Shown here piece after piece: positions 26,491 to 60,800 of a stretch of 64,000 bases of DNA. The DNA is from Thozetella sp. PMI_491. Taxonomy: Eukaryota; Ascomycota; Sordariomycetes; Chaetosphaeriales; Chaetosphaeriaceae. Positions within the stretch are counted from its first letter, which is position 1. Every line of letters begins with the position of its first letter. The stretch covers positions 682,001 to 746,000 of the forward strand of contig MU270024.1 in the NCBI GenBank assembly GCA_021432635.1, read 5' to 3'. Both the position numbers and the translations under genes were made by a program. The notes under the pieces were generated by a model. It searched no databases. It was not told where the DNA came from and saw nothing but the letters and a program-made list of their open reading frames with translations.

Positions 26491-26739
26491 TTACTGGTGT
26501 GTCCGAGGTGTAGCACCCAACATCCTTAGGGCACGTCTCTCTGTACACATAGAAACTTCCATAGATGACATAATTAAGCCTACCGAGTTCAACGTACTCT
26601 TTACAACCCTTAGACTGATTTAATTAAGTTAAATAACTACAAGGCCCGTGGCAAACAGGTCCAGCTACTCTACATCTATTACATGCGGGTGCTGGGCAGA
26701 AACGTGTTTAAAAATGCAAAGAATGCTAAAGTCTGGATT

Positions 26740-29298: not shown

Positions 29299-31782
29299 AT
29301 GAAGGCCGCTCTCCTCGCGCTGGCCGGCGGCATTCTGGCCGGTCGTGCCGCCGCGCAAAATTCAACGCCGGCCGGCCCAACCCAGACGGGCACTATCTCG
29401 ACGTGCAACGAATGGTACCTCGTCCAAGATGGTGACACGTGCGGTACCGTTGAGAGCAAGTTCGGCATCACGCATGTTCAGTTCATAAAGTGGAACTCGG
29501 CTGTGTCGCCCGACTGCGCGACCAACTTCTGGGGTGGCTACGCCTACTGCGTAGGCGTGTCTGGAGCTGCGCCAGCTTCGACGACGAGCTCGAGCAGCTC
29601 CAGCAAGTCCGTTCCAACCGTGACAAGTCCGCCGGGTCCGACCATGACGGGCTCGCCAGCGAACTGCAACAACTGGTACCTCGTGAAGGACGGCGACAAC
29701 TGCGGCACCGTCGAAGCGGCGTACGGTATCACGCATGTTCAGTTCATAAAGTGGAATCCGGCTGTGTCGGCCGACTGCGCTACCAACTTTTGGATTGGAG
29801 AGGCGTACTGCGTGGGCGTCGGAGCCGTCGTATCCGGGGCATCCTCAACCTCGATCACGACTGCCAAGAGCAGCAGCACCGTCACTAGCAGCAGCATCAA
29901 CACAAGCACAACGCCATACTCGACACGCCTACCCGTCACTAATTGGACCATTTCGTCTCCCACTGTCGCAACAACGTGGCCGCCCACCCAGACGCAGGCG
30001 GGCCAGCCCAGCTACTGCAACTATTGGCATTTGGTGCAAGCTGGTGACACTTGCACAAGCATTGCGGCCATGTACCCAACGTGGATGAGCCTGGCGGATT
30101 TGTGAGCCTACCCAAATCCTCGCCTTACGTCCATTCCTCGTCCCATTTCTTGAATGCCAAGACGGCCGCGAGTGTGAGATGTGTATCTGCTAACATTAGC
30201 AATGTTGAACAGCTTTGCCTGGAACCCCGTTGTCGGTAGCGACTGCACCGGTTTGTACGTGATGTACTGGGTGTGTGTGGGTATCCAGCCGCAGACTTCT
30301 CTTACACTTGAATATCCGCCCACCACGCCCACGATCCCCGACGAGGTGCCGTGGACGTCGACGCCGCTACCGTCGGTCGACTACAACTTTACGCCGTCAC
30401 CCACCCAAGGCCCGCTGCCAACCAACTGTGCTAACTACTACTACTCCCAGCCGGTAAGTGACTAGATTATCCTTCTTCTGTAGTTCAAATATGGCTACAG
30501 TTCCTGGTCATATCTGTGAGCAAAACCCACATATATTGACTTGTATAGGGTGACACGTGCCGCATCGTGGCCGCCAACCTCGGATATGTCTCCCAGGAAC
30601 AATTCCTCGCTTACAACTCCTTCCTTGGCGGCAATTGTGATGGGCTCTGGTCGGGAGTGTACTACTGCGTCAGCCAGTGGAATGGCTCCCAGCACGACCT
30701 TCCCATGCCGCGCACTGTCAGCACAAAACCATCGCCGGTGCCCTCCGACACGACGACAGCATGCACGTCGTGGTACCAGATGAGCGGCGATGATGACTGC
30801 GATGTCATTCCGGCCATCTTTGGCACCTTTTCCCGGTCTGACTTCGTCTCCTGGAACCCGAGCGTCGGGCAAGGTTGTTCGGGGCTTGTGGTAAGATTCC
30901 TCCGTCCCTGTCTTGACGCAAGTCTTGTTTATAGAACCTGGCCCTTAATCGCGCACTTATAGGAAGGTACCTACTACTGTGTCTCAGTGCCTGGCACACC
31001 GACCACACGTACGGCCATTGTTACCCCAACGCCGACCCCTACAGCGCCGGTGCAGCCGGGCATCGCCGCCAACTGCATCAGCTGGTGGCTCGTGAAAACG
31101 TGCGTGATCCCCAGTTTACCCGCAGCCACTCGTGAACGATGTGGACGTTTGCTAAAACCTATCGTCTTAGCACCGATACTTGCGACATCATTACTACGGC
31201 AAATTCTCTCACTCTAGATCAGTTCCTCGAGTGGAACCCGGATGTTGCCAACGGTACCGGCAGCTGCACGCAGCTATACCCTGACTATGATGTGTGCGTG
31301 CTGATCGAGGGCCTGGCGCCCGGTGGCAACGGGACCACCACCGCGGTTAGCTCGTCAGGTGGCTCAACTAGCACCACCACCGCGGTTAGCTCGCGAGGTG
31401 TCTCAACTAGCACAATCACCTCCAGTACCCCAACCTCGACCCAGTCGGGCGGCGCAATCTCCACGCCGGTGCCGGTCCAGGCTGGTATGGTGTCAGGGTG
31501 CCACAGATTTTACTTCGTCGAGTCAGGAGACGGGTGCTGGGCGATTGCAAACTCGGCTCAGATTGACCTCAAGTATGCACTCCCCCCCTCGCTTTGCAAC
31601 CTGAGCCCTTGGCATGCCATTTGTTGAATGCTGACCAACTTCTTAATAGTAACTTTTATGCGTGGAATCCGGCCGTCCAAACGGACTGTTCTAAGCTCCT
31701 GGCCCAATACTACGTATGCATCGGCATCAGTGGTCCCGTGACAACAATCACGACCGGGTCGCCCGTTCCAGCGCCGACGTAA
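29299..31782 (+). CDS. Secreted multi-LysM protein, seven LysM domains
   Basis: Six exons join in phase: 29299-30101, 30213-30453, 30549-30890, 30963-31099, 31171-31572 and 31650-31782, for 685 residues. A signal peptide (MKAALLALAGGILAGRAAA) is followed by seven fungal-type LysM (CBM50) units, each with the C...W-x-V...GDTC...F-x-WNP...C...YYVC pattern, separated by Ser/Thr/Pro-rich linkers. Units 1 and 2 are nearly identical, including a shared stretch ITHVQFIKWN. Units 3, 4, 5 and 7 are each split by an intron, and unit 6 is interrupted early. LysM proteins bind chitin oligomers or chitin in cell walls; secreted fungal forms can protect hyphae or mask chitin. No catalytic domain is present. 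It lies downstream of the chitinase-protease pair, consistent with a chitin-related function for the locus. Confidence 0.9.
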
Positions 31783-34856: not shown

Positions 34857-37800
34857 TTAAGCCCGAACTTTAAGGTTAGGCGCTCCCATAACCGCAAGAG
34901 GTTTCTCCTCCTTAGCTTCTATATCGGCCAAGACAGAAGATCGGGAAGACTGGGTGTCGCCGGACTCAGACTCCCCGCTACCGCTTTCCGACGATGAGGC
35001 AATAGCTGGCTCTGCTGTAGACTCTGCCTTATCAGATGAGCTTGTCGCCAATTTCTGCACTGTGTCGTCCACTAGGTCCTGGATTGAAGAGCCGCCGAGA
35101 ATCTTGAGCACAGCAAGATCGGTTCCAACTTCCTGGGCAAACCAAGTGCGGATCTCCACTGCAACAAGGGAATCCACGCCGAGATCCACAAGTGGAGAGA
35201 CCTCGTTGATCGAATCGCTCTCGCTCATAAGTAAGCTATGCTTCAGCTTCCTAACAAAAGCATCTGCTCCAGGTTAGCCGTTACTCCAGATAGCTTTAGT
35301 AAGGTTGTGTACCTCTCAGAACCACTCCCATCTCATCTTCGTTCTTAGCTGCTTCGAGAAGCTTCTTGACGGGTATGGCGCCCGACTTCGCAACGCTGGG
35401 TAATTTGGCCAGCCCGATATCCTGAATGAAGTGGCCAAACTTTACGTTGTCACCCCATAGCGTTTCCTTTGCTTCCGCCGTGCTGATGACCCTGAGTCCT
35501 GTGATGATCTCTGGGTCCAAATTGCTACCTGGGCGGCCGGCAATAATCGCCTCGGCGAACAGCTGATGTAGATCAGTCTCAGACATGACAAATGCGCCTG
35601 ATCGACTGGTCAAGCGCATCGCCTGTTCTCTGGAAAGTGCGGCATTCTTCTGGGTCTCTCGGGCGATATAGCCCACTCCCACTACCTGGGCGATATCGAT
35701 GACGGAACCAGCGAGGCCACGGTGGCGTCGCTGAGCAATTAAAGCTTTCATGAACAAGTTGGCGGCGGTGTACCCTCCTTGTCCATGGTTTCCGACCATG
35801 GATGCGAGGGAGGAGAAAGCAACAAACCAGTCGAGTGTATTCTCTGGGAAGAGATGGTCGAGGTAAGTTGTTCCGAGCACCTTGGCCTTTGTGTTGGCGT
35901 GAAGCGTTTCGAGATCCATATTACCCAAGCTAGTGTCCCGTAGAACTAGTGCCCCATTGGCTACGCCAGCGATGGGTGGGCAAGATGAAACTATCCTTGA
36001 GTGGGCGTTCTCTACCTCTGACTTCATGGTGATATCGGCGGCGATATAGACAATGGTAGCGCCGCGCGTTGCATGTAGATATACCCACTCTTGGTCAATC
36101 TGTGGGTGGCGGCTGGTCAGAACCACATGCCTCGCACCGTGCTCGATCATATAGTCACAGATAGACCGTCCCAAATCTCCAGCCAGACCCAGCAACCAGT
36201 AGGTCTTATTATCCCCGAAGAGATCGTTGCGACGAGAAATGGGCTCAGTCAGAACGGGAATCGTAGGGTCTGCTCTCCAATCGACAATTGTCATGGCTTC
36301 AGTGTCAGTGGAGGCTCCTTCACCTGCCGCAATATGACTCAGTGGCACCATCCGCAATGGCATACCATCAGGAACGCCATTCAGCTGCGTCGAGGCGAAT
36401 TCATTTGCTTTGGCTAGCATCTGCTGGATACCATCATCCTGCAATCCAGACAACGGCGCCGAGATACGACCGATGAGAGCAGAAGCATCGTATTTGGTGC
36501 AGACACTCCGCATCTTTGCAGCAATTCGTTTGCCCAGATCCGAAGACTCGCTAGTGTTGGCCATAGATGCTGCAGAGGACAGATCGAAATACACCGACAC
36601 CTCTCGTGGAAGCAATGAGTCAAGATGTCTGTCCATTATGCGAGGGTGGAGGTGAATCCAGTTTCTCCTCGTCGACCTTTCCAATTCGACTGCGGAGGTG
36701 GTGAAGACAACTCGTGAGCCGCCGCTCGCTAGTTGCCGAGACAGGAGCGATGCCAGGCCAGAGTCAGCCTCGTGCACAAGAGCTGTGCTCCCTTGCGGGA
36801 TGAGAGACGCAATGTATTGACTCATGAGATAGCCGGACATGAAAGAGAGATACTGGGCATCGATACTCTTCATGCAGTCCACAGGAGTTGCCCATGTGCT
36901 TGGAATCGACACAGCCGACGCATTTTTGCACGAAGCGAGCAGAACCCGTTCGCTGGTATCCATGTCTGTCCCCAGGCCGAAATAGAGCCGGCCACGCTCA
37001 GTGGCCATGGATGGGAGAAGTGATGAGTCCATCTGGACCTTCCGATACCCATGGTGGCTCGGCAAATTCTTGCTCTCCTGTTCCCGTATGGCATATTTGT
37101 TGTCCTTCCACAAGAGCTCCACGACGGTATTCTGGATGTCTGCACTTTTGAAAATGTCTCTTTTGGCAGAATTATATCTTGCATTCTGGTCCATTTGTAG
37201 ATAGAGCCGTGGTATCTCCACGCTGCCTTTGCGAATCCGAATCTCGGGCTCGGTAGTCCACAGCCTTGTCGAACCACTGCTGCCATTTCGCCATTGCGCC
37301 GTAACCTCCAGGCGAAACAGCCGTTCGACCAAGGATGAGGCGTCGGCGCCCTGAGGCTTCTCAAAGTCTAGAATCTGAAGCTGCGAGTCTGGTAGCTCGT
37401 ACCGCAGAGAGCGGAAGAAGCCGATGGTCATGGCGCCATCAGCATTCTCTCTCTCTGCACCCCAGGTAGCCCAGAGGACGTTCCTAGGGGATGAGAAGAG
37501 TTTCTTGAACTTTGCGAACCGACTTTCTGTCATATTCTCCCAGAATGTAGAGTTATCGAAGTCTGTGAGACATAGAATGCTGTACCTTTCCGTTATTTTC
37601 TCGAGCTGTAGTTCATCCCAGCTGCTCGCATGGACAATATCTTCGTAGGCGTTCTTGGTCACAGCTTGGACTTCATCAATGATAGTGCGTGTAGTTGGGG
37701 TGCTACCTCCCATAATCACCAAGCCGCTCTTCCCCGTCTGGGGGATCGTGTTAGCGCTAGACATTGGAGCCATCAGCATGTTGATGTCTTTATCAACCGC

Positions 37801-40800
37801 CCTAGAGACCAAGATCGAGCCAGCCATGACTACGGGGTCATGGACTGGAGTTGAGGTATCAACTCCGGAGAATCCCGTCTTGAGCAACAACTCGTGCCAC
37901 GTCTCTGTCGACACTATAGGGCCGTAGCGACGACCTGTCTCCCGGCCCATCCACCAGCCGGGCAAGCCGCCGAAGATTAGACCATAGCGCATGGGGGTGA
38001 CGTCAACAAATTCCATGAGCAACAGGAAGCCACCTGGGCGCAAAAGTTTTCGCGCGTTGGTCAGAGTTTCCTCCAGATTCGGCGTTGCATGGAGAACATT
38101 GGCGGCCAATACCAGATCGTAGCTCGCTTCCTCAAACCCTTGATCTGCTGGATCTCTGGTGATGTCGAGGGTCTTGTATACGATTCGATCCTTATGGACG
38201 GAGAAGTTTTCTTGGGCCTTTTCGAAGAAACCGCTAGATATGTCGGTGTATGTATACGACGTGTATGCTGTTCCAAACGTCTCCAAGACTCCGCGGGTGG
38301 CACCTCCCGTGCCTGCGCCAATTTCGAGCACATTCATACGTGGATAGCGGTGAGAAATCTGGCCAGCCATCGTGGCAATAAGCTCATTGAGTCGAGCAAA
38401 GCCGGCAGCATGCTTATAATAGTTATCGAGAGCATTATTTTCTCTCATATGCTCAAGCATACTCGTCTCTCCTCGCAGCACCGCTGGGAGTCGCTCCCCT
38501 ACGGCTCGGGTCAGGGCGAAGTTCGCTTCTTTGGCGTCATATTTGTCCATGATTGAAATGATCTCGTCATAAGTGTCTCCCATATACTCTTGCTTGACAA
38601 ACTGGTGCTCCCCTCGGCCTACCATGTCGCAGATGTACCTGGCGTAGTCGAGAAGGGCTTCATGGTGATCTGGGAGATTCAGATCAACACCACCGACGTT
38701 CTCCAAGAGGGTTCTGAGGTAGTAGAACGCGACTCGCTCGACATCGTACCCAGTCTGGATCTCCTGTGGAGTAGCTCTGTGGCTGCCGAGTGCCAGCTGA
38801 CCATCTGGATGCTCGACGCTCCACAGAGTATGCGAGAAAAGATTGCGATCGTCGGATGCTCTGGCCTCTGAGAACGGAACGAAAGTAACGCCTTCGATGG
38901 AAATAGACTTCAAGTGGGAATCGGCCTGGAAGATATCCACGTCACCGGCGATTTTGCTGCCGGCGATTTGAGAAATGCTACAATCAAATGCCACCTCACT
39001 TGTCATGTTGACCCCGCAGAGAGACGGCACGAGGCTGACTCTCCGCATAGTGGATGGGACGTGAAGCGACCAGAGTGTTCCATCTCCTGGAGCACCCAAC
39101 GCGAGTAGGAGACCCTGTAAGGCAGAGTCGAGCATTCCAGGATGTGCTAAAAGCCCATCGTTTGACGGAGCCATGACCATTCCTCGCGAAACGCCTAGAC
39201 TGCGCTCGAGAGCCTTCAGACCTCTGAAAGACGGCCCATAATCGTAGCCGAGTTTTCCTACTTCCCGGTAGAAATTCTCGACGTCAACTGGGTTCAGGCT
39301 CCGTGCGCTAGGGGTTCGCGGTGGCAGGATCTCGTCAACACCTTGTTCGCCCAGGAATATCTGGACGCCGGCAGTGGCATTGAGCACCAGCTGAGGCGAA
39401 TCTTTGGTAGGTGCTGAGAAAAACGAAAAGCAAGCTCGAATGCCATCAGTAGTTTGCTTGATCTCCGTCATGGTCACCAGTATCTCCGTGCCTGCTGTGT
39501 CGTCGATCGCGACGGCCTTAGCGATGCATACATCCGTTAGCTCTAGGAGCTGCACTGTTTTCTCTCGTTGAGTGCTGTTGGCGATCTGCATCGCTGCTTC
39601 TAGCGCGAGTGCGACGTAACCCATCGCGGGAAAGACAGTCTGACCTTGTAGCGCATGATCCGGTAGCCAAGGTAGCTCCTTCGGAATAAGCACATTTCTC
39701 CACCTCCAGGCTTCTTCGGTACCATCAGGAATCCTGGTGCCCAGCAGGTCATGGTAAACCCCGGGTTGCTGGCGAAGCAACTTGGTATAACGGCCCTCGG
39801 ACCAAAGCGGGCGGTCATGGGTCCATGAATAACCTGGCAGGTCGTGTAGCATAGCAATCTTGTCCGCGTTGTCGTAAACACATTGTTGATAGCGCAGAAA
39901 GTCAACTGAATTGGCCCCATGAATAGTCCATAGCTCTCCGAGAGCCTCTGCTGTCGCATCTACATCATCCTTGCCACGAGAGAGCGGGGATATGTAACTG
40001 ACAGCTGGGACATTGCAAGCTCCTTTCAGAACATCCGAAGCTGGCCCTTTGAGTGCCGGATGGGGACCAACCTCCACGACCGAGTCGAAAGCACCGCACT
40101 TCTTCACTGCTGTCTCGAGTGCCTGAGAGAACAACACCGTGTTATTCATATTGTGTGTCCAGTACGGTCCCAGCAGGCCCTCGTGAGCCTGGACAGTAGT
40201 GCCTTCGTAAGCACTCGAGAACCAAGAGGGAGCTCCTGCGCTGGGGGTTATGATTTCGATCCCACAAGAGCGGAGGCCTTCTAGGAAAGGTTCCGTCGCA
40301 GCTTTCATGTGGTGAGAGTGGTATGCCTTGTCGACCCGGAGGCGCCGAACAAACTTTCCCTCCTCCTCAAAGATGATCTGAGCCTCTTCGATGGCGTCCA
40401 CGTCGCCCGAAATCGTGATACTCGTGGGAGAGTTGGACGCAGCGACCGTCAGTCGTCCTTGAAAGTCTTCCAAGTCGCAGAACTCTCGGGCGTCCTCTAG
40501 AGAAGTCCCGACAGCGATCATGCCACCTGTCTTTCCTTCGGGGCCGACCGCCAGCTGGGAGTAAAGGCCGCGATAGTATGCGATGCGAATAGCATCAGCC
40601 ATGCTGATGAATCCGGCTGCGTATGCTGCAGCAATCTCGCCTGAGCTGTGTCCCACAACGGCCCGGAAGGAAACTCCTGCCTCGTGCAACAAATTGACTA
40701 GCATAATCTGAATCGCGGCGGTCATGGGTTGCGCGAAGGCCGCATCGGTCACACGGCTAGTGGAGCCATCCTTCTGAAGCTCGTCGATAAGCCTCCAGTT

Positions 40801-42850
40801 TGGCCGATCCTCTGTATTTGGCAAGGATGCGAGTGACTGATCCAATGTCTCTATAATCCGCCGTGCATATGGGACTGTCGCTAAGAGCTCAGCGCCCATG
40901 CGTGGCCATTGGGCACCCTGACCCGTGAACACCCCGAGGATAGAGGGAGTGCCGGCGTTGGCTGAGCGGGTGTCCAAGGCAGAAATTTCGTTCGACGATA
41001 GAACATCCCGGATCTTGGCGATAAGAGAGTCTTTTCCTTGGGCGGACAGCGCTAGCTTGAATGGAAAGGTTGTTCTTTGACAGGCTAGAGTGTGGGCGAG
41101 ACCTTGCATGTCAACCGTGTTGGCTGTGTCCAGATAGCTCTGGTAGGATTCCAATACTCCACGAAGGCTCGCTTGAGAGGCTGCCGAGAAAACAAATGGG
41201 AGAATCTGACGACCTGTTGCCACACTAGGCGAAGGGACGGGCAAAGCTTTAACCGGCGGGGTGTAACTCTCTATAATTGCGTGGGCATTGGTTCCCCCGA
41301 AACCTATATATTTGACATGGTCAGTTATCACGGTCGTGGAGGAAAAGGGCCGGCCATATGCTATTTCTCAGGGAGTCCATCTCAACGATAGGGAACGTAG
41401 CTTACCGAAGCTGTTGATACTCGCTCGCCGTGGCACCCCTACCGGTAGGCTTGGCCACGGCTGTGGGGATGTTACGAGCTGCAACCCTTCGTAAAAAGGG
41501 GCAACAGTCGGACTCAGCTTCTTGAAGTGCAGATTTGGGGGTATAAGGCCGTGTTTGATGGCTAGGTATGCCTTGAGCAGACCAGCCAAACCAGCTGTTC
41601 CTTCGGTATGCCCTTTCCAAGATGTTAGAATCGAGTAAAGTTACAACAAGCAGTAAGAAACCAGATGGTAGAGTGGGACATTACCAATAACGGTCTTTAT
41701 AGATCCGACGTATAGCGGATCCCTGTTTTCGGCGCGGGAAGCCTCGGCCACGAATGCGGTGTGAAGTGCCTCGGCTTCCTGGGGATCCCCAGCTGGAGTG
41801 CCAGTGCCGTGAGCCTCGAAGTACTGGCACCGGTCGGTACTGCTATGGATGTCCAGTCCCGCCCTTGCGTAAGTATCCCGAATTAGCGCGGCCTGAGAAG
41901 TCGCACTGGGCATCGTGATACCCTTCGTCCGGCCGTCTTGGTTAACGCCGGTCTCGCGAATAACACACTCTATCTTGTCGCCATCGGCAATAGCATCGCT
42001 TAGCTTCTTCAAAATCACAGCTGCCACGCCTTCCCCGCGCGCATAACCGTCGGCATCAGCGTCCCACATTTGGCTCCGACCCGTGGGTGAAAGCATGCTG
42101 AGGGACGCCTCAGAAATGTACATCATAGGCGAGAGCGCCAAACTCGTGCCCGCGGCGACCGCAACACGTGAAGTGCCAGCTCTTAGCGTCTGCACCGCCT
42201 CATGCAAGGCTACCATGCTAGAGGAACATGCAGTATCGATTGTCATGCAAGGGCCATGCCAGTCGAAGAAATAGCTCAACCGGGCTGACGCGTTTGAGTT
42301 TGCAATTCCCGTGGCGTTGTACTTGGGCACGTGGTTGAAGTCTTGGCCGTGCAAAATATAATAATCGCTGCACATAACACCGACATAGACGGCGGTGTCT
42401 GAGCCTTGCATGCTGGGAATGGTCAGACCAGCCGTTTCCATAGCTTCATAGACAGTTTCCATGAGCAATCTGTGTTGCGGATCCATTGCAGCGGCCTCTG
42501 TCGTCCACACGTCAGCATCAAGTCTGGGGCATTGCAGGCTATGAACAGCCCGGGGGCTCCAACTCACCTCCGGGGGGGATCCCAAAGAAGCCATTGTCAA
42601 AGGTACGTATATCCTCATCGAGGAAGTAAGTCTCTTTGACATTGAATGTACCATGGTGTGAGCCATCGGGATGATAGAATCTATCCAAGTTGAAGCGATC
42701 AGACGGGATCCTCTTCGCCAGCTGTGGTGGGTTTTTGAGAACATCCCAGAGCTTGCTTGCAGAACTAGCACCACCTGGGAAACGACAACCAATGCCTACG
42801 ATGGCGATGGGCTCGTTGGTCTCCCGTACAGGGAGGGCGGTGGAGTTCAT
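34857..42850 (-). CDS. Highly reducing type I polyketide synthase (KS-AT-DH-cMT-inactive ER-KR-ACP)
   Basis: Five exons, 42850-42568, 42497-41685, 41612-41406, 41303-35313 and 35263-34857, join in phase through four introns of 49-102 bases and encode 2566 residues. KS: DTACSSS with Cys185, then EAHGTGT and the His of KTVIGHTEG. AT: GHSSGE with Ser654. [11 protein letters not shown] with His984 and MLDSALQG. C-methyltransferase: [11 protein letters not shown] near 1428. [13 protein letters not shown] and the catalytic Tyr2279 in [18 protein letters not shown] with Ser2463 for phosphopantetheine. Between cMT and KR the enoyl-reductase region lacks a working NADPH motif, as in LovB-type synthases that need a partner ER. 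After the ACP comes a Ser/Glu-rich tail of about 80 residues with no condensation or thioesterase domain. It should make an alpha-methylated, partly reduced chain; product unknown. Divergent from the ANL-ER gene. Confidence 0.95.
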
Positions 42851-43648
42851 TGTGCGAGCTCGCTACAAATCGCTCGCATATTACATGAAAAGGGACAAGT
42901 TTGGTCGTTGTAAATATGGAACAAGACTGGTTTCAGCAACGACCTCAAGATTCTCGTAGCTGTCGCTTGGTATGCGGGTTAATACTTTGCGACTTTATAT
43001 TACGTATTGCTCGTGTATATAGGCGGCTCCTCTCCTTCCTGCCACTCAGAGATCATCATGTCATGGCTAACCGCAGAAGCGAATAGGGCTTAGTAGTGGC
43101 TTGCGTTTAGTGCCAATCCTACCTCCAATAATTGTCGCCTTGCCTCAGACGAGCGCCGGGCTGTTTTCGTACCGTTGGCCACGGATCGGGTTGTTTCAGC
43201 CTTGCTCTAGTAGCTAGGTAACAACCAAAAACTCTCCGATTTCTGCCTGTAGTGGACCAAGGAACTCTCAGTAGCCCGCGGCTGGGCCACCGGCGAGTTT
43301 TCCGGCGGGTTAAGAGACGGCACCGGAGGCTGACTCATTTATGCTAGCTGATGATGTAGTCGGCGGTATACAACCCGGATGGAGGATTTAGGGCTGATAC
43401 GGTGATACTGATTACCAACAAGGAACACCATTTTTGAGCTTTTACTGCCTTTGACGATTCCCGGTAGAAGGTATCCGGTCTCCTTGCAAAGAAGCAGAGT
43501 AGAGTAGAACCTTCCGCTTGCAAGAACGGATATGTTCAAAGGCGTTGCCTGATTCCCAGACACAGTTTCTCTTTCTTGAGTCGTGAGGCTGACCGCATCC
43601 ATCCTTGCACAAGTCTCTAAGGTTGTTGAATAATCGCAGAGCGCAAAC
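42851..43648. promoter_or_regulatory. Bidirectional promoter of the PKS and ANL-ER genes
   Basis: About 800 bases separate the divergent start codons. It carries a tandem pair of the 9-mer CGGCGRGTT: CGGCGAGTT at 43291-43299 and CGGCGGGTT at 43303-43311, 12 bases apart start to start. The same motif recurs in other promoters of this cluster, which suggests coordinate control of both genes by the cluster Zn2Cys6 regulator. Confidence 0.6.
43291..43311 (+). promoter_or_regulatory. Paired CGGCGRGTT motif, PKS/ANL-ER promoter
   Basis: CGGCGAGTT (43291-43299) and CGGCGGGTT (43303-43311) in direct orientation. CGG-containing repeats of fixed spacing are usual targets of Zn2Cys6 proteins. Located 351-338 bases before the ANL-ER start and about 440 bases before the PKS start. 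Confidence 0.6.
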
Positions 43649-46557
43649 ATGGCTTCGAACGACATAGGTCCGGTTGCACTGGACCAGGCGCTACAATCGC
43701 GCACCATCCAGGAATTTCTCAACCATTACATCCACCTGGAGACCAGCATCTTTGGGTTCCCTCAACAGACTGCCCAGTTCGCCTACTATACGCCACGACA
43801 AATCTCAGAGGCGGCTGGAAAGGCCGTTTCAGTCTATCTAAAGCATGGCTTGCCGCTTCGCGAGACCGGGAAGCCTGCAGTCGTGGGTCTACGAGCTCAT
43901 TCTACGGTGGACTGGGTAATCACGTTCATCGGCTTATTGAGACTGGGCCACACCGTTCTCGTTCTCGCGCCGGCACTACCTGCAGAGAAAGTTGCAATCC
44001 TAATGTCGAAAGTAAATTGCACTTTTGTAATCGACGAAATTGCGGACTTGGTGGCTCTGCAGAACAAGGATCGAACGGTGGTACCGTTGGTGACAGCCGA
44101 CGAGTTATCTAGATTGGAGACTAGCTCGGTAAACATCGGTGTGGACTACTTCAAAGACGCATCCGCCGTTTCCGACACAGAACCGGTGATCTTCATGCAC
44201 TCGTCTGGTACGACAGGCCTGCCCAAGCTCATCCCGAAGGTTCATCGCGAGCTCATCATGGCCCTGAGTATGGTCAAGATTCATCAGAACCATTCCTTCT
44301 TCGTGGGATCTAGCTTTTACTACATTGCCGGTATTTTCTCTGTGCTGTTTTCTTTCATGAAAACCAAGCCCAGTTTCTACGCCAACGAGAAAATGCGCCT
44401 CACGCCTGAGGGCTACCGCCAACTCCTGCTCGAATCCCAGCCGAATGTGGCCTACTTCAGCCCCTTTTTGCTATCCATAGCGGCATCGCTCCCGGAGAGC
44501 GTCGAGGTGCTTAGCCGCAGCATGATGATTGCTGTGGTAGGTGCGGTGTGCCCAAAACAGTTAGGCGACCGGCTCATCAAGGCCGGTGTCCGACTTTCCA
44601 ATGAGTACGGCATGACAGAGCTTTCTATGGGCATGAGTTCTGCGATGCGCCCCCCTGGCGATCTCGACTGGGAGTATGTCTCGATGAGCCCCAAGACCCG
44701 GCCTTTTGAAGAGATGGTCCCGCTTCCTGAGGAAGAAGGCAGCATCTCGGCTACAGGCGAGCAACTCTACGAGCTAGTCATCCTCCCCAGCCACCCTCTC
44801 CAGGATAAGCGCTGGGCAAATTCCCCAGACGGTTCATTCCACACCAAGGATCTATTCGTCAAGCACCCCACGATGGACAGGTGGAAGCCGGTGGGCCGCC
44901 GAGACGACGTGATCAAGACGTTTCCTGACGATGACATGGTAGCACTCAATGCCATGCTATACGAACATGCGCTCAAGCACGCGAATGAGGATATCGTCGA
45001 CGAAGTCGTCATGTTTGGCCACGAGCGCCGCTACCCCGGTGTTTTAATCTTCGTGAAGCCCGAGTGTCTCCTGTCACCCGAAGAGGTCCTAGAGCGGGTG
45101 TGGGCCACTACAGAACGCGAGATCAATGGCGTGCTGAAGACAGGCCTGGCGCGGGACAAGCTGAAGGTGGTCATGGGCGCCACGGTGCCGCGTACAGCGA
45201 AGGGCAATTTCATCCGCCCGGAGATCTATCGCTTATTCGATGATGTTATCGAGAGCGCGTATTCCTCTCCACTGAAGACAAACGGGACCAGCGGGAGTGA
45301 ACAGAACGGCACTCACGGCACCAATGGGACGAACGGAGTCAATGGCGTCAATGGCGCCGACAATGGGTTGCCCAAGACACACTCCGCCGTCGTGGCGGAC
45401 GAAGTTGGAGCGCTTGTTGTGAACCCCGGCGCCCAAGTTCCAGACCTGGAAGATGATATGGTCTTGGTTCGCAATGCGGCCATTGCTCTGAATCCGGTTG
45501 ATATGAAGATGCTCGGCCCGCTTGCCACGGCCGGAGCTGTAGCCGGGCATGATTTTGCTGGGACAGTGGTTGCTCTCGGCTCTAAAGTTTGGACTGCTGC
45601 GCCTATCAAGGTAGGAGATCGCGTATGTGGCGCGGTTCAGGTAAGCAAGCCCCCAAAATTTGATTTAGCATCATGTCTCAGAGCTGAGTCGCGGTAACAG
45701 GGAATGCACTCCATCACGCCTCGAGTCGGTGCTTATGCGCAGTATGTCGGGGGCAGCGACGTAGGCATCATGAAGATTCCCGAAAACATGTCGTTCGAGG
45801 AGGCAGCTACGCTAGGTACCGGCATTGGTACCGTAGGCATTGCCCTGTTCCACAGCCTCAAGGTTCCCGGGTGGCCGGGCCGACCAGCCCCGGAGCCCAA
45901 GACGGTTCTGGTCTATGGAGGCAGTACGGCCACCGGCACTCTGGCGCTTCAGATACTAAAACTGTGAGATTGCACTCCGTCACCCTAACGCCGCTAGGCA
46001 TCTAACCGCCCAAATTTCCGTGCCACAGTGCCGGGCTAGATCCCATCACAACCTGCTCGCCGGCCAATTTCGATCTAGTCAAGTCCTACGGTGCCACGCA
46101 TGCGTTCGACTACCGCTCGAAAGATTGCGTGGAGCAGATCAAGAAACATACCAAGAACTCGCTGAAGTACATCATCGACTGCGTTTCCGACCCGGACACC
46201 ATGGAGTTCTGTTACAAATGCCTCGGCCGTTCGGGCGGTAAACTTACCACCCTTGAACCGCCCCCTCGGTACCTACATACCCGGGAAAAGACAGTGACTC
46301 TAGACTGGGTCCTTGGCCCCGCTTTGATGGGGAAACCCATTGCTTGGCCACCCCCAATGCAGCGGGACGCGGATCCTGCCTTGCGCGAGTTCGCCAAGGA
46401 ATGGTTCGGCACGATCCAGAAGCTGCTAGACCAGGGCAAGCTGCGTTGCCACCCAATGAAGGTGATGGAAGGAGGCCTAGCGGAGATCATCGGGGGGCTG
46501 GACATGCTGAAGAAGAAGCAGGTGTCAGGCCAGAAACTTGTATATCCCTTGGCTTAA
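43649..46557 (+). CDS. Fusion of ANL adenylating enzyme and LovC-like trans-acting enoyl reductase
   Basis: Three exons, 43649-45640, 45701-45963 and 46029-46557, encode 927 residues. The first exon alone is one open frame covering both domains, so the fusion does not depend on splicing. Residues about 1-540 are an ANL adenylating domain: HSSGTTGLPK at 184-193, NEYGMTELS, FHTKDLF, GRRDDVIKT and PRTAKGN with the catalytic Lys518. A low-complexity Asn-Gly linker spans about 545-572. From about 575 a medium-chain reductase follows: NPVDMKML, AGHDFAGTV, and in exon 2 VYGGSTATGTLALQILKL, then TCSPANFDLVKSYGA, close to LovC-type partner reductases. No carrier domain lies between the two halves. The ER should act in trans on the PKS, whose own ER is dead; the ANL part probably forms an acyl adenylate or thioester, substrate unknown. 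Confidence 0.93.
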
Positions 46558-47399: not shown

Positions 47400-48811
47400 A
47401 TGGACACGATGCAGCGCATGAGCCCGGGCGCGGTGAGTCGCGATGCTTGCGACCGCTGCCACGCCATGAAGACAAAATGCACTCGCAGGGCCAACTCAAG
47501 AATCTGCCAGAGATGCAACCGGCTCGGTGTTTCCTGTGACTACAGCCCGCCTCTAAAGACTGGGAGGCCGCAGGGCAGGAGGAGCAGTAATGTGCCGAGG
47601 AGTAGACAGCAGCACTGCAGCCAAAAACAAATGCCACAAGCGATTGGAGATATAGAAAGCGAAAAAGGTAGGGCTCGATGGCAATCCATATTTTATAATC
47701 ACTGATTTTGTTAGACAACACAGAAGACCCTGCTCTCACTCTAGACCCTTTGTTTTCTTTGCACAATTCACCTGCAGTTGCTTTACACATTCAGCCGCAA
47801 GACCAATGGCTGCAGAGCGAGCCCCAGCTTTTTGGCTTCTTTCCTGGGGCGGGACAGACGGTGGAGGGCCAGACGCTCTCGACTCTCGACAATTCGATAT
47901 TTGACTTGTTGCCGCGAACGGAACCGGTTAATGAGGACGGGGCGCCAGGCGGAGCTCTCTCGCCTAAGCCACTGCTCACGTCCGAGCTGGACCATGACGC
48001 CGAGGAGCATGATTTTCACGCTTACTGCACGCATGGCTCTGTCATCAACTTTGAGGCGCAATTATTAGATATACAAGCCGGCCTCCTGAGACTCGAGAGA
48101 GACGTCCGGGAGCACGAGGCACAAGAAATGCCCGCGCGAACTCGGGCTCCGTCCACTACCGACGGGGAGGCCCACCCTCTTACTTCCAGCCCGATGGCGG
48201 GGCTGATCGAGCGACTGTACATGACGACGCAGGAGCTGGCCGTTATCATCGAGAGGATGTACCAGCCGATAGAGGAGCCAACTTGCAGCTTGGATCCCAC
48301 CCTCGACGCCTTGACACCCCTGTCTACAATGGAGTCGGATCACCCTCGAGCGCCTATTGCGGTTGTTCAACAGAGCGCTACGACAGCACTCCTGGTGGCG
48401 AGTTGCTACGCACGGTTGGTCACTTCATACAATCTCCTGTTGAAGGACCTTAGTTCCTCCTATTTCTCAGCGGCGAGGGCCGACATTTCGGTATTTCTCA
48501 CGGGACGGCTTAAAATCTCCATGTCTCCGGAAATAAGTTTCGGCCTCCACATACACATCATATCCCAGGTGATGCACCGTGTGCGAAAGGCCATGGTGGC
48601 ATATTCATGCTGCCATTGGCCTCTTGCGAGCGAAAAGTGCGGAATCGGAGGGACATGGACATCGGAGGATAAGACAGGGGTGAAACCAGATGAGGACACC
48701 GCTCTGGCATATATACTCCGAGCGGCATCTACGGAAATAGGCCTAAGAGAGAAGAAGCTCAAATCGAGTTTGCAGGCAGCTGGGGAGGATACCGCATTAA
48801 AGGGGATGTGA
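47400..48811 (+). CDS. Zn2Cys6 transcription factor, AflR-like, probable cluster regulator
   Basis: Two exons, 47400-47667 and 47715-48811, joined over a 47-base intron (GTAGGG...TTAG), encode 454 residues. The binuclear zinc cluster begins at Cys17: CDRCHAMKTKC, then CQRCNRLGVSC, followed by a basic GRPQGRRSS linker. This matches C6 domains of AflR-type pathway regulators. The middle is acidic and proline-rich; the C-terminal part has helices typical of the AflR C-terminal region (QSATTALLVASCYARLV, ISQVMHRVRKAM). It should act in the nucleus and bind CGG-type sites. Its place between the ANL-ER gene and the MFS gene, and the repeated CGGCGRGTT motif in neighbouring promoters, make it the likely pathway-specific activator. 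Its own promoter lacks that motif as far as I can see. The start at 47400 gives the Zn cluster a usual short N-terminal leader. Confidence 0.88.
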
Positions 48812-49738: not shown

Positions 49739-52089
49739 ATGGAACAACTCGAATCGACACGCTCATCTCCATCCAGGGGGTCCTCGCATCGGTTTGCCGC
49801 CGTGGACTGGGAGACATTCACCGAGCATGGGTTCGATTGGCACTACGACCAGTCTTCCATCTCGAGTGCACCAGAGACCCTCGACACGCGGCTGCTCGGC
49901 TGGCCAAACGACAGCTACGACCTTGGTGTTCGTCCACTCGAGGGCTCCAAGTTCAAAGCCGCCTCCAGCAGAGAGCATGTCACGTGTTACGACGCTTCAC
50001 CCTCGCAGCCCGCGGCCGGGCCTGGCATCCAGGCCGCACCTGCTCAAGATGATACAATCCAGCCGCTTCAGGGCTTCCGGCTATGGAGTCTAATCGCCGG
50101 GCTTTATCTCGCCATATATCTCATAGGTCTCGATTTAACCATGCTGTCGACGGTGCGTATCTTTACCGCACATACACATGTTATTGTAAAAAGCATTTAT
50201 ATTTACTTAGGTATCTCACTAGGTCATACCGAGTCTTTCCGATTACTTCGGCACCATTAATGACATCGGGTGGTATGAGTCTGCTTATTTGTTGGCAATG
50301 TGAGCCGTGAACTTCGCGCTGGGGGTCCAAGAAGTTAACTCTCCCCAGATGTGTACTGACGCCATTGGCTGGCAAGCTCTACAATGTCTTCTCTAACAAG
50401 GTTACTAGTTACACCCATAAGCCCCCTTGTATCATGCTGCAGTGTGAATCAAGCAAACGCTAATTGAATAACAGTTCACATTTGTCGGCTTTCTTGTCGT
50501 TTTCGAGCTCGGGACCATCATCTGTGCAATTTCCAAATCGAGCCAGACATTCATATATGGACGCGCTGTAACAGGCATGGGAGCATCGGGGCTCATGAAC
50601 GGCGGTCTCGTCATCATCTCGGTCGCGTGTCCACCAAGCATCAGGCCCGTCATCACCGCATGTGGGATGTCCTTGATTGCAGTTGGGGGTATCACTGGAC
50701 CTTTGATCAGCGGTGCTCTGACGCAGCAACTAGGCTGGCAGTGGTGTGAGTAAAATGGTGGCCAGACAGCCGCCCGTTCTGTGGCAACTTGGACTAAATA
50801 CCGGCTGTAGCCTTCTGGATCTTTCTTCCCATCGGCGCGGTAACCATTGCAGCGACTATCCTTGTCCGGGTCCCTGAGCAGTTGGTCAAGCCGCCCTTTC
50901 GCGCAGCGCTCGCCAACCTCCCGCACAGCATTGATCCTATTGGCCTTGCTCTTATCGGGCCCTCTATTGCCATGTTCCTCCTTGCTGTTAGCTGGGGCGG
51001 TACGGCGGAATACGCATGGTCTTCGCCCACTGTTCTAGGGCTTCTAGTCGGATCTGTGATTACCTTTGCTGTGTTCATCATGTGGAGTAGACGGCTTGGT
51101 GAAGATGCAATTATCCCCCCATCACAGGTCCGTCAGCCGCTGGTGGCTACGAGCTGCGCTGTGATCGCCTTGCAAGGAGGATCGACTACGCTGGTCACGT
51201 ACTATCTCCCCGTCTGGTTCCAGGCAATACAAGGCGCCACCCCGACTGATGGGGGGGTTAGGCTTCTGCCCTCCATGATCGCACAGATCATTGGCTTGAC
51301 CTGCTCCGGGGCACTTGGTATGTACCGCATCGCCCAGATTTCTTTACCGATTCTGATGCTTTATGGTCTTCAGTTCGAAGGCTTCGCTATCTACCTCCAT
51401 GGGCCATCGTCGGCAGCCTACTTTCAGCCATCGGGTCAGGGCTGATGACTACACTAACTCCAAATTCGGGGAAGGCGCAATGGATTGGGTTCCAGGCTGT
51501 CACGGCCCTTGGCCGCGGCATGGCCATGCAAATGGTCCGTACTATGCGTGCTTCTTACCTGTACGACTGTTAACGTACCGAGGGCATAGCCAGTAGTGGC
51601 TCTGCAGGAGTCGCTCCCCGGGAGCGAAATGGCAACAGCAACGTCAACACTGACGCTCCTAATGTACATGGGGAGTGCCATCGGGATATCCGCCGGTCAA
51701 ACAATATTTCGAAGCTCTCTTGTGCCGGCCATCAACCACTATACCACCGGAGTCGACCCTCAGGTCGTCCTTAATACGGGTGCTACTGACATACAGAAGC
51801 TCGTGCCACCGAGCGATCTGCTGGGACTGCTCTTGGCTTACAACGAGGCACTTACCCGCATATTTGTTAGTCTGCTCCTTACCCCAGTGGCTGGGGGTCT
51901 GCCAAAATCAATCTGGAGCATGCTGACGCATAACCACCGCAGTACTACCCCGTGGCAGCAGCAGCCATTGCCTTCTTCTTGAGCTTTGGCCTAGGGTGGA
52001 GGAAAATTGGAGTCACTAGTGTAGAACTATCTAACCCCCCGCAGGAGATGTCCAGGGACAATCCTGGAACGGACCGGTCGGGCTGTTAA
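49739..52089 (+). CDS. MFS drug/toxin-type exporter (DHA family, 14-TM-like)
   Basis: Eight exons join in phase: 49739-50152, 50223-50299, 50349-50400, 50475-50745, 50811-51317, 51374-51534, 51590-51865 and 51943-52089, for 634 residues. After a long hydrophilic N-terminus of about 110 residues, the first helix reads WSLIAGLYLAIYLIGLDLTM, followed by IPSLSDYFGTINDIGWYESAYLLA and PLAGKLYNVFSNK, the typical motif A region. A later block ASGLMNGGLVIISVACPP and GGITGPLISGALT is the antiporter motif C. These mark the DHA2-type exporters that accompany secondary-metabolite clusters. The C-terminus is short and hydrophilic. It should pump the cluster product or a related compound out through the plasma membrane. 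Several stop codons in the raw frames fall inside introns, so the gene looks intact. Confidence 0.88.
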
Positions 52090-52692
52090 CTAGCGTAACT
52101 AGCTATGAGCCGCAGGGCAAGGGCAAACCACTAAACCTAGACTAATGTGCCTATGAATAGCCAGGCGGCTTTAGATGTAATTGAATAAGCGCCCCTAACA
52201 ATACTCCGTACAACGTGAGCGTTTCGGCACGGCCTACTGCTTCAAAAACTGAGGCTCAGGAGCTCAGCTGTAGCCGCCCTAGGGGTACTTAGTATTGTGC
52301 TCCTTTGGAAGTTGGTTTAGGCCAGTTTATGGCGTGTAAGATATTCTTAGAAACTGCTAGGGCTGTTAGTAGGACAGCCCGATCCCGCGAAACGTAGTCG
52401 CCACAGGACGCCAGGCAGCAAGGTACCTACCTACCTAACCTAGCCACATTAATACACTCAGAGACGCTACCGGTGTCTTAGCGCCTCTTCCTCGCCTAAA
52501 AGTCGCCGATGGTCAGCTTGATGTAGTTCTATGGCCACAAGGGTGCGTCTTGCTATGAATCCTATGACACCGTACAGTCACTGTTGTACACCGGACACGT
52601 CGATTCGCACCTCTTCCTACCACGCAATTTACCATTCATTCTTCGTCCATCCCAGACAAAGCGGTCAAGGAACCAGCATTTCAATTTACCTC
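52090..52692. other. Short intergenic region upstream of the FSH hydrolase
   Basis: Contains AAGTCGCCG (52500-52508), which is CGGCGACTT on the other strand, one base off the cluster motif CGGCGRGTT. An in-frame ATG at 52531 would add 54 residues to the hydrolase but encodes sequence unlike the family. Confidence 0.4.
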
Positions 52693-53508
52693 ATGGCGCC
52701 TGTCACTCCCCGCCAGCCTTTGCCTAAAATTCTCTGTCTGCACGGCGCGGGGTCGTCCGGGGCCATTTTCCAAGCCCAGTGCCGAAAGATCACACGTTCG
52801 CTTCGTAACGAGCTCGAGTTCGTCTACGTGGACGCTCCTTTCGCATCGAAGGCCGGCCCCGGTATGTGGCCTGTGTATTCTGACTCCGGCCCATTTTTCC
52901 GATGGCACTGTGACGAAGCCGCGACGGAAGGCTTCGACATCACCGATGCGGAGGTTAGAACAGAAAGAGAGAAAGTCAGGAGCATGTTCGAGTCCATATT
53001 TGCTGAGAGTAAAGACGCTCCTTTTATTGGCGTCATGGCCTTCTCTCAAGGCGCTAGAGTTGCGACTGGCTTGCTTCAATATCTTGAAAAGATGTCGAGA
53101 GAGGGCTGTCAAGGTTGGCCAGATATGAAGTTTGCCATTCTTTGCAGTGGGACATACCCACCTCTTCTCATAGACGAAGATGCCAACACTGCAGCTACTG
53201 GCGAGGGTGGATCTGTTGTTGACGAGCAAGACCTACCCGCTTCAGAAGCAGTAGGAGATGATACAGTCAACACAGTCGAATCCCGGAAACTCAGGATTCC
53301 ATCCATCCATCTTCATGGAACCCGCGATCCATGGAAGACCGAGTCAGAGAGATTGGCGCAGGATTGCTACGCCGAAGAATCTTCTACTGTCATACAGTTT
53401 GCTGGCGGTCACCAGATTCCACCGCAGGACATTGATGTTGCCCGCGTGTCAGGGGAGATACTTCGCCAGCTTCTCAAGGCATCTCGGGGTCCTCTCGGCA
53501 TGGTGTAA
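52693..53508 (+). CDS. FSH1/LovG-like serine hydrolase, probable polyketide-releasing thioesterase
   Basis: One exon of 271 residues from ATG 52693. I prefer this start because the family begins with KILCLHGAGSSG within the first 20 residues; an earlier in-frame ATG exists at 52531. The alpha/beta-hydrolase landmarks are clear: LCLHGAGSSG (oxyanion loop), VYVDAPF, GVMAFSQGAR with nucleophile Ser118, LHGTRDPW with Asp212, and GGHQIPP with His240. The FSH family includes LovG, which frees the nonaketide from LovB. The PKS here has no release domain of its own, so a releasing or editing role is likely. It is cytosolic by lack of a signal. A motif copy with one mismatch sits about 190 bases upstream. 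Confidence 0.9.
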   Translation: MAPVTPRQPLPKILCLHGAGSSGAIFQAQCRKITRSLRNELEFVYVDAPFASKAGPGMWPVYSDSGPFFRWHCDEAATEGFDITDAEVRTEREKVRSMFESIFAESKDAPFIGVMAFSQGARVATGLLQYLEKMSREGCQGWPDMKFAILCSGTYPPLLIDEDANTAATGEGGSVVDEQDLPASEAVGDDTVNTVESRKLRIPSIHLHGTRDPWKTESERLAQDCYAEESSTVIQFAGGHQIPPQDIDVARVSGEILRQLLKASRGPLGMV

Positions 53509-53847: not shown

Positions 53848-55160
53848 TCACCTCCGAGGTTCTACTGAAAATTTAAACTTATGAGACGCCGTCATCACAC
53901 GGTCTGGCCCGTACAGAATATGTTCATCACGCTGCCATTCTGGATGGTTCAAAGCATCCGGCCAGTCCTGCATCTGCATAGATATTGCAGCATTCCTAGG
54001 TACTCGTGCTCCACCCTGGGCGGACTTCAGAGATAAGTTCCCTGGATCATCGGAGTTAGATAAGGAAGTCGATTCGGGATTCTGGCAGTGAGGAGAAGGT
54101 GGCTGGGACTTACTGGCAGGCTCTTCATCCCACGTGACTATTCTCACGGCTTCCTGGTCGGTGTACAGTTCCATTTTGATGCCGGAACGCGCAGATGAGA
54201 GAGATGCAGCGGGCTTGCTCTCCCAGTGCCACGGCTGAGGACGCTGAATGAGATAAACGTCATCATAGCGAGCAATAGTAGGGCCGCCGCGCTGAGCAAA
54301 GCCCTCCCTTAAAGGCTTTGGGCCCGACCAAAAATCATGCTCGGAGTACTTAGGATTCCCTTTGATGTCACCGGTGGGGATACCGTGCTCGTCTTCCTCC
54401 AATCGCAATCCAGAGAATGGGAGATGCAGCCGCTGCTCGGCGACAGTGCGGGCATCAGGGTCCGGCCCGAAGCCGTCCAAATTGAAGAAAGTCTTGAGGC
54501 TCAAGCTCACAGGGATGCGAACATCTGTCCGTGTTGGCGTCACACCATATGCAATGCGCCACTCGTTTGGATATACAGAGTGTGTCATGCAGTAGCCCGC
54601 AGAACCCGGAAACCCATGCTTAGAAGGGCGGTCGAAGCCCACAAACGTGATACTGTTAGATGTGTGCGATGCTACATCAAATGCGCGATGTTCCCAGCCC
54701 TTGAAGCCGCCATTATATGTCGTTGTTCCGTTGTTCCCATTGGCTTCCCCGGCGGAAAAGGTTACTCCGTCGATTTCAAAACTAGGGCTGCTGATATGTC
54801 CCGCAACCCTGCCTGGAGATGGAGTGTCAGAAACGGAGAGGGCGGAGAAGCCCTGAAAATACTTGTGGACGTACCGATAGCCCCGCCAAGGAGTCCTCTG
54901 TAGTTATCGTACTCTGGGACTCGATCAAGACCAAGGATGACATCTATCTCATTGCCATTCGTATCGTTTATCCAAAGGTTGGTGACAGATCCTCCGTTGA
55001 GATTGGTAAATGCAATTCGAATGCCTTCAGCTTGAATGATCCATTTTCCTTCGTAGTCAGCCGGCCATAGAGCCGTATACCCAGCAAAAGGACTACCACC
55101 GTTCCATAGTGCCTTCACTGTTGCCGTTATACTAAAAAACCATTGCGCGGCGACAACCAT
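53848..55160 (-). CDS. Aldose 1-epimerase (mutarotase)-like protein, possibly secreted
   Basis: Two exons, 55160-54875 and 54812-53848, with a 62-base intron (GTACGT...CCAG), encode 416 residues. The N-terminus (MVVAAQWFFSITATVKA) looks like a short signal peptide. The family blocks are readable: RIAFTNLNGGSVTNLWI, EIDVILGLD, GGAIGRVAGHI across the splice, a TTTYNGG stretch (usually TLHGG), then SVYPNEWRIAY, KTFFNLDG and, near the end, LYGPDRVM. In aldose epimerases a catalytic His normally sits in NNLHGGxxG and in SH-x-YFNL; here the equivalent positions read TYNGG and KTFFNLDG, so both catalytic histidines seem replaced. The protein may have lost mutarotase activity and may bind a sugar or do other chemistry. 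Its promoter carries the cluster motif three times, which links it to the PKS cluster. Confidence 0.8.
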
Positions 55161-55397
55161 TATGAGAAGTGGCCAGTGGTCTCTTTCTCTGTAGGTATGG
55201 TAGGAGAACTTGAAATCCCTCCCAAGCTCGACCAGTTCCTGTCTTGTACCTAGTCACGATTGCTTTAGGTATGCCTCCGTTCCTTTGCCGCGCTGTCCTT
55301 CTGGCTAGTCTATGGATTCCTACCGCCAAACAAGTAAGGTGGATACTTAAAAATTCGAGCCGTGCAAATTTTCTCTGTTCGCCTTGAAGAATTCCAT

Positions 55398-59997: not shown

Positions 59998-60800
59998 CAG
60001 ACTACTCTTGTATCAAGTCGGCCCATGCCCTGAAGAATAGCCCCTGAATTGTGTCCTTCTTCTTTCCGGTCAGTCCCGGTGATATAGCAAAGTCTCTAAG
60101 ATAGTGTATAATAGCGGCAGTCTCCATCCCTCCATCGTTGTCCTCCTGGTCATCTTTCAAGTGTCTCGTCATTCTGCAGATCCAGTATATTTGCTTCGAA
60201 GAAAAATCTGCCGTGCGGCGAGAGAACATCTGTTCTCGTTTGACCCACGCTCTCTAAAGTAGTGGGCTGTCATCTACATCTTCACGGAACGAGCTGGCAA
60301 TCTTCGAACCTCCTCTGAAGAAGACTCTTCCCTCACATCGACCGTTCATACTGGCCCTAAAGTCGATAGGGATCCCGGAGCGGATTCGATAAGCAAGAAA
60401 TCCTTGGCAAGCAGCGCTGGCTAAGGTTACACCAATGGTAAGATATACGCTGTCAATATGGCCCATCCGTTGTATCTCATCTATCCAATCCGCATTCTGA
60501 TTCTGACCTTGAACAATGCAGAGCGCATGTACCCAAAGATTTTGGATTCGGAGCTTACGGACTACCATGACGGCATCCTGGATTGTCGGGGAGAGCAGTG
60601 CTAAGGCACGCCCTGCATCATTTGGCTGAGGGTCTCGGTAGAGTAATATAGCCAGCCTGGTTTGTTACCCAGCAGTAGCCGAGAGCCGCGTACTTCAGTA
60701 GCAACATTTGGCTGCCCGGGCAAGCCGATATCAGCAGTTGCTGGCGGTGACGAGAGAACAGCTCTGGCCCAAAAAGGATTTCTATCGCGATCTTCGGCAC
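59998..60800 (-). pseudogene. HET-domain (heterokaryon incompatibility-type) pseudogene
   Basis: Minus-strand pieces in different frames follow the order of a HET domain: YAALGYCWVTNQAGYITL near 60690 (canonical ALSYCWG), then RKLRIQNLWVHALCIVQ near 60530 (canonical WIDALCI), DWIDEIQRMGHIDSVYLTI, and finally FSRRTADFSSKQIYWIC near 60210 (canonical ERxLSxRxLxFxxxQxxWEC). Frameshifts and stops separate the pieces, and the conserved Gly after YCW and the Asp of WIDALCI are changed. So the gene is not functional. HET genes evolve quickly in filamentous ascomycetes and decayed copies are common. Confidence 0.7.

Follow-up and report, generated by a model that had tools for sequence, protein, structure and literature searches.

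The locus studied here raises the question of whether a single fungal gene joins an adenylate-forming (ANL) enzyme to a LovC-like trans-acting enoyl reductase, and of what such a protein could do for the polyketide synthase (PKS) beside it. Known trans-enoyl reductases assist PKSs as separate proteins. The window is the whole stretch of DNA analysed, 64,000 nucleotides of contig MU270024.1 of Thozetella sp. PMI_491 (Sordariomycetes, order Chaetosphaeriales), and all positions below refer to it.

Gene structure and reading frame

The gene runs on the plus strand from the ATG at 43649 to the stop at 46557, exact to the base as initially annotated (stop codon counted in). It has two introns (GT-AG, 60 and 65 bases), both in the reductase part, and its spliced product of 927 aa is ordered as ANL domain (1-543), linker (544-573) and LovC/FSL5-type trans-enoyl reductase (574-926). 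The features of the gene, with the protein model deposited for the same fungus, are as follows.

43649..45277, plus strand: ANL (adenylate-forming) domain, aa 1-543, carboxylic-acid-reductase type (PF00501 and PF23562), with motifs A3, A5, A7, A8 and A10
45278..45367, plus strand: in-frame linker rich in Asn, Gly and Thr, aa 544-573, with predicted disorder in P0034
45368..45640, plus strand: trans-enoyl reductase, first part, aa 574-664, sharing its exon with the ANL domain
45641..45700, plus strand: intron 1, GTAAGC...ACAG, splice matching the deposited P0034
45701..45963, plus strand: exon 2, reductase, including YGGSTATGT (aa 736-744)
45964..46028, plus strand: intron 2, GTGAGA...ACAG, splice matching the deposited P0034
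46029..46557, plus strand: exon 3, the remaining reductase and the stop, including the TREK loop aligned to the LovB-MAT-binding residues of LovC
45173..46557, plus strand: deposited 419-aa reductase model of Thozetella sp. PMI_491 (P0034), starting at the internal Met509

The initial annotation placed both enzymes on a single open exon. Exon 1 (43649-45640) does hold the whole ANL domain and the linker, but of the reductase it has no more than the first 91 residues. The first in-frame stop after 43649 is at 45695, inside intron 1, and from Met509 onwards no in-frame ATG occurs before codon 604, which is within the reductase. With a codon-usage model trained on the neighbouring PKS, frame 0 ranked top among the three forward frames in all 14 blocks of 150 bases and was positive in 13 of them, the linker included, while the last block, mostly intron 1, was negative. 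Reverse-frame scores exceeded 0.05 (0.08 to 0.26) in 4 of the 14 blocks, always below frame 0.

An intron parting two genes was considered and rejected. Exon 1 contains 15 GTRNGN donors, all of them outside 45101-45480, and the donors at 45098 and 45100 damage the ANL domain. Combined with the acceptors at 45143 or 45197, these two would yield a protein ending at 489-516 aa, and all four such introns cause a frameshift before the Lys518 codon and delete ANL sequence that is conserved in stand-alone relatives. The junction of ANL domain and reductase is thus a true in-frame fusion at the DNA level, and it is more than a chance join given the 53% identity of the ANL half to a relative, the mean pLDDT of 84.3 of its predicted structure, and the identity of the deposited P0034, each described below.

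The deposited protein and its start

P0034 is identical, letter for letter (100% identity), to fusion residues 509-927, so both introns were spliced alike in the deposited model. Starting at Met509, it cuts through the ANL C-terminal domain and keeps only the last part of it, with Lys518, ahead of the linker and the reductase. The public annotation of the reductase begins at this residue, so its annotators did not treat the locus as one gene. The reductase part of P0034 has a confident AlphaFold2 model, whereas its residues 1-63 fall below pLDDT 50 and are predicted disordered. Within the model of the whole ANL domain, by comparison, fusion residues 511-540 have block means of 77-89 (46 for the last three residues), a contrast that may partly reflect alignment depth because few rows of the P0034 alignment reach residues 1-63. 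From these models, the deposited protein is most likely cut short by its start site.

The same observations bear on the idea that the locus gives rise to two proteins, with the reductase made also, or only, from Met509 and the ANL part being a passenger or a separate, truncated product. The deposited start would fit this, as would the splice pairs that end the ANL part at 489-516 aa. Those introns, however, all lose the Lys518 codon's frame and sequence kept in relatives, a start at Met509 leaves 35 ANL residues on the reductase that are predicted disordered there, and the codon signal is unbroken. We consider the production of two proteins unlikely.

The adenylating half

Pfam detected PF00501 (AMP-binding) at residues 71-344 and PF23562 (AMP-binding C-terminal) at 434-539. 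All the motifs of a complete ANL enzyme, as claimed in the initial annotation, were located, i.e., A3 (HSSGTTGLPK, 184-193), A5 (NEYGMTE, 318-324), A7 (FHTKDLF, 397-403), A8 (GRRDDVI, 416-422) and A10 (PRTAKGN, with Lys518), and both subdomains are folded in the AlphaFold2 model (mean pLDDT 84.3 for the ANL half). Residues E324, D401, R417 and K518 are invariant across 15 aligned ANL sequences, and the PF23562-type C-terminal domain is present in all 15 aligned proteins, the window protein counted. The A7 core, TKD, is likewise found in three rows (P0010, P0011 and P0012) with the adenylation-carrier-reductase (A-T-R) architecture.

In the ANL tree, the closest proteins are the stand-alone P0002 and P0003 of Aspergillus felis and A. 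thermomutatus, the former 53% identical over a 543-column alignment, and the ANL half is placed with stand-alone enzymes, apart from the A-T-R rows. By sequence, it belongs to a stand-alone fungal group related to the adenylation domains of carboxylic acid reductases. The 927-aa protein has no Pfam match to PF00550 (carrier, T) or PF07993 (NAD_binding_4, R). A carrier domain hidden between the halves was likewise rejected, as Pfam detected none and the gap is the 30-residue Asn/Gly/Thr linker, in agreement with the earlier statement that no carrier separates the two enzymes. The fold matches of the ANL half include short-acid and aryl-acid ligases, which carry no substrate information as they share only 11-19% identity with it; no fungal carboxylic acid reductase is among the fold matches listed.

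The reductase half

The second half is a full-length zinc-type medium-chain reductase (PF08240 at 602-691, PF00107 at 742-821), and its top match among solved structures is LovC (3b6z; 277 bits, E 1.8e-81, covering LovC 13-359), so that its description as a LovC-like medium-chain reductase holds. Lys620 and Thr708 align with K54 and T139 of LovC and are invariant in 22 rows (K112 and T200 in P0034). These two LovC residues are said to have a catalytic role, reportedly described by Ames et al. in 2012.

In LovC, the loop T271-M274 binds the MAT domain of LovB, as described in PMC7870829. T271, R272 and K273 align with T836, R837 and K839 of the fusion, with a one-residue insertion and the methionine not kept, and the predicted PKS-docking loop reads TREK in the fusion versus TRKM in LovC.

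The reductase falls in a clade of seven rows (SH-aLRT 100) in a tree of 112 rows, built with a quick method without bootstrap after 11 of 118 listed relatives were dropped by length, along with the window's own P0034. Its six clade partners, from Metarhizium, Arthroderma, Meristemomyces, Pestalotiopsis, Diaporthe and Stachybotrys, are each stand-alone proteins of 351-365 aa, and the source records call the Metarhizium and Meristemomyces proteins FSL5. The identity is 70% to the FSL5-named Metarhizium protein and 63% to a Fusarium pseudograminearum protein. Two other LovC-like reductases, P0047 (Aspergillus wentii) and P0091 (Purpureocillium), have C-terminal extensions of ~60-70 residues that look alike by eye.

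Occurrence of the fusion

To see whether other proteins combine an ANL domain with a trans-enoyl reductase, the check suggested in the initial annotation, we compared 152 proteins. The ANL half had 29 matches among them and the reductase half 124, and P0034, itself a piece of the fusion, was the single protein shared by the two sets. The protein searches scored ~8000 candidates each. A second ANL-reductase protein was found in 0 of 17 and 0 of 21 matches (lengths of ~510-1622, with ANL models shorter than 510 aa outside this range). P0034 aside, there was also none among the best 120 of 1318 reductase matches, whose lengths reached ~610, so that a whole fusion could not appear there. In the open-access literature, judged by titles and abstract openings, we found no description of an ANL-reductase fusion, consistent with the earlier remark that none was known to have been described. 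The parts are known and, within the proteins and literature searched, the pairing is new.

Six other multi-part proteins were examined as candidates for the same fusion and rejected, as none has an ANL match. P0001, P0006 and P0133, from Teloschistaceae lichens, are each annotated as one protein with two LovC-like reductases in tandem, joined by an NG-containing linker, and P0006 and P0133 lack part of the second copy. P0008 (Paramyrothecium foliicola, 589 aa) is annotated as a LovC-like reductase followed by an FSH1 hydrolase, an arrangement resembling LovC-LovG, although a run-on of the gene model is possible. P0007 (from a metagenome, 958 aa) consists of a condensation-domain piece, a thioester-reductase domain and a LovC-like enoyl reductase. 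In P0009 (Aspergillus fumigatus, 728 aa), an FSL5-like reductase breaks off after its first 218 residues and the protein continues as a P450. Aspergillus has fusarielin-like clusters, which are disrupted in several A. fumigatus strains (PMC5711037); P0009 would fit a deletion or a mis-model in this decaying cluster.

The gene cluster

The fusion gene is flanked by the following genes.

34857..42850, minus strand: LovB-like highly reducing PKS, KS-AT-DH-MT-psiKR-(no detected ER)-KR-ACP, introns partly mapped
42851..43648, no strand: intergenic gap of ~800 bases from which the PKS and fusion genes diverge, presumably serving both as promoter
47400..48811 (approximate), plus strand: Zn2Cys6 transcription factor, matching FSL7 by family
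49739..51979 (approximate), plus strand: transporter in one exon, TRI12 efflux-pump match (Pfam)
52531..53508, plus strand: FSH1 serine hydrolase, FSL2/LovG counterpart by family and place
53848..55253 (approximate), minus strand: aldose 1-epimerase, FSL3 counterpart by family

The best solved match of the PKS is LovB (1102 bits), to which it aligns along the length of LovB, and the acidic patch E747-D748-E749 of LovB aligns with EEE. Pfam detected neither ADH_N nor ADH_zinc_N in the PKS ORF, and no release or other domain was seen after the ACP. The supposition that the reductase has a partner PKS lacking a working ER is therefore borne out to the extent that no ER domain was detected in the adjacent gene; the ER of LovB itself is inactive according to PMC7870829.

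According to PMC6274466, the F. graminearum fusarielin cluster comprises FSL1 (PKS), FSL2 (thioesterase), FSL3 (aldose epimerase), FSL4 (P450), FSL5 (trans-enoyl reductase), FSL6 (AMP-binding) and FSL7 (factor). FSL6 is FGSG_10459 and FSL5 is FGSG_10460 or 17367, making them neighbours by number. By Pfam family and the LovB match, the window cluster resembles a fusarielin cluster. No P450 was found among the window ORFs searched with Pfam, nor did a single heme-motif expression match in six frames, a search that an intron-split motif or a gene beyond the window would escape. No T-R protein or acyltransferase partner was recognised among the ORFs searched with Pfam.

Elsewhere in the window, chitin-binding and GH18 chitinase exons (24529-26265, plus strand) and a nearby LysM protein (29071-30105, plus strand) make up a set of secreted chitin-related genes in 24529-30105. 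An astacin-like protease (26743-27990, below the Pfam cut-off) and an alpha-galactosyl-binding fungal lectin domain (21123-22766) are encoded on the minus strand, as is a piece of a heterokaryon-incompatibility (HET) domain protein (60260-60664).

Possible roles of the fusion protein

By analogy with characterised systems, we favour a division of labour in which the reductase half works with the PKS and, once the hydrolase has released the acid, the ANL half activates it, a reading to which we give a probability of about 0.45. As in LovC and FSL5, the reductase half would dock on the acyltransferase domain of the PKS and reduce chosen enoyl intermediates that the PKS is unable to reduce alone. 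The FSH1 hydrolase, as a counterpart of FSL2 and LovG, would then free the chain as a carboxylic acid. The ANL half, tethered at the PKS by the flexible linker, could adenylate the freed acid and pass it to a CoA thioester or another acceptor. The join would fix both activities at equal amounts, near the exit of the PKS. As the T and R domains are absent, the fusion alone would not be expected to reduce the acid, and a CoA thioester or transfer to another acceptor would be the likely outcome.

The initial annotation offered two roles, loading of an acid starter and re-activation of the released chain. A fusarielin-type cluster, an expected acid-releasing hydrolase and an ANL domain related to carboxylic acid reductases together favour the latter, though they do not prove it. 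A carboxylate-activating step is to be expected in pathways of this kind. The F. graminearum deletions, as presented in PMC6274466, suggest that the chain is built by the PKS with FSL5 and released hydrolytically by FSL2, and the same paper assigns no enzyme to the step from fusarielin acid to the alcohol. FSL6 was left out of that deletion study and deemed unlikely to be involved, since it was not co-expressed with the cluster. A 2025 paper, in its account of the carboxylic acid reductase PtsG, reports FSL6 as the most similar protein (39%) and suggests that FSL6 is a carboxylic acid reductase that may reduce fusarielin acid (PMC12616698). Several points stand against this favoured reading: the public annotation of the reductase from Met509, the reported lack of co-expression of FSL6, the grouping of the ANL half with stand-alone rather than A-T-R enzymes, and the absence of a recognised partner gene or P450 among the ORFs searched with Pfam.

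Starter loading, in which an unusual short acid, once activated by the ANL half, would reach the PKS as starter unit by way of the docked reductase, is in our judgement also unlikely. From the LovB complex as described, the reductase is expected to sit on the acyltransferase domain, near the entry of the starter, and both the loop and the acidic patch are largely kept; the short-acid and aryl-acid ligases among the fold matches would suit such a role, but are uninformative on substrate at that identity. Fusarielins, the characterised product of such clusters, begin from acetyl-CoA according to a legend in PMC6274466, and are made with a stand-alone reductase.

A recent accidental fusion, whose domains act as in their separate relatives and whose join has no functional meaning, seems improbable. 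A single fusion was found, its six nearest neighbours in the reductase tree are unfused, and other LovC-type reductases are annotated with different fused partners, so joins of this kind may arise often. Against this, the Asn/Gly/Thr linker is spacer-like, unlike read-through intergenic DNA, and the motifs are kept in both domains. Such an origin is compatible with activation of the released acid and does not exclude it. An assembly or sequencing error joining two neighbouring genes is very improbable, as the deposited Thozetella P0034 carries the join (ANL residues 509-543, linker and reductase), albeit a weak check that probably derives from the same assembly.

An extension of the favoured activation of the released acid, more speculative and doubtful, is that the reductase half is a docking adaptor parking the ANL domain on the acyltransferase domain, where the freed chain would be re-activated and returned to a carrier or channelled to the next enzyme. 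If so, an iterative PKS would have a bifunctional trans-partner that governs reduction as well as what becomes of the chain end, and carboxylate activation would be tied to fusarielin-type pathways by a natural fusion. More generally, a natural ANL-reductase fusion hints, on the genetic side, at a place for carboxylate activation in these pathways. It bears on the step that alters the acid at the chain end of fusarielin, for which FSL6 was set aside and later proposed as a carboxylic acid reductase in the accounts cited above, and its fusion point may be ready-made for attaching new activities to a trans-reductase.

Comparison with known systems

Fungal carboxylic acid reductases have the A-T-R architecture; the window ANL domain shares their PF23562-type A domain without T and without R. 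FSL6 of the fusarielin cluster and PtsG of the pterrespiramide cluster are described, like the window ANL domain, as adenylating enzymes encoded within a cluster. The A, T and R domains are all present in PtsG, and FSL6 has been proposed to be an enzyme of that type (PMC12616698), whereas the window ANL has neither T nor R. The A. felis and A. thermomutatus ANL proteins likewise combine PF00501 and PF23562, and are 53% identical over the ANL domain, but at 545 aa they are without a reductase, unlike the fusion.

The fusarielin cluster includes the P450 FSL4, of which no counterpart was found within the window, and it makes its product with a stand-alone reductase, whereas the window reductase is fused. 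FSL5, the fusarielin trans-enoyl reductase, is a separate protein with a fused counterpart here, their likeness being measured through the Metarhizium and F. pseudograminearum proteins. LovC, from lovastatin biosynthesis (3b6z; LovB complex 7cpy), likewise has the aligned lysine and threonine and likewise a LovB-like PKS partner. LovC/FSL5-type reductases are separate polypeptides, LovC included, whereas in the Thozetella DNA the reductase carries an in-frame ANL domain at its N-terminus.
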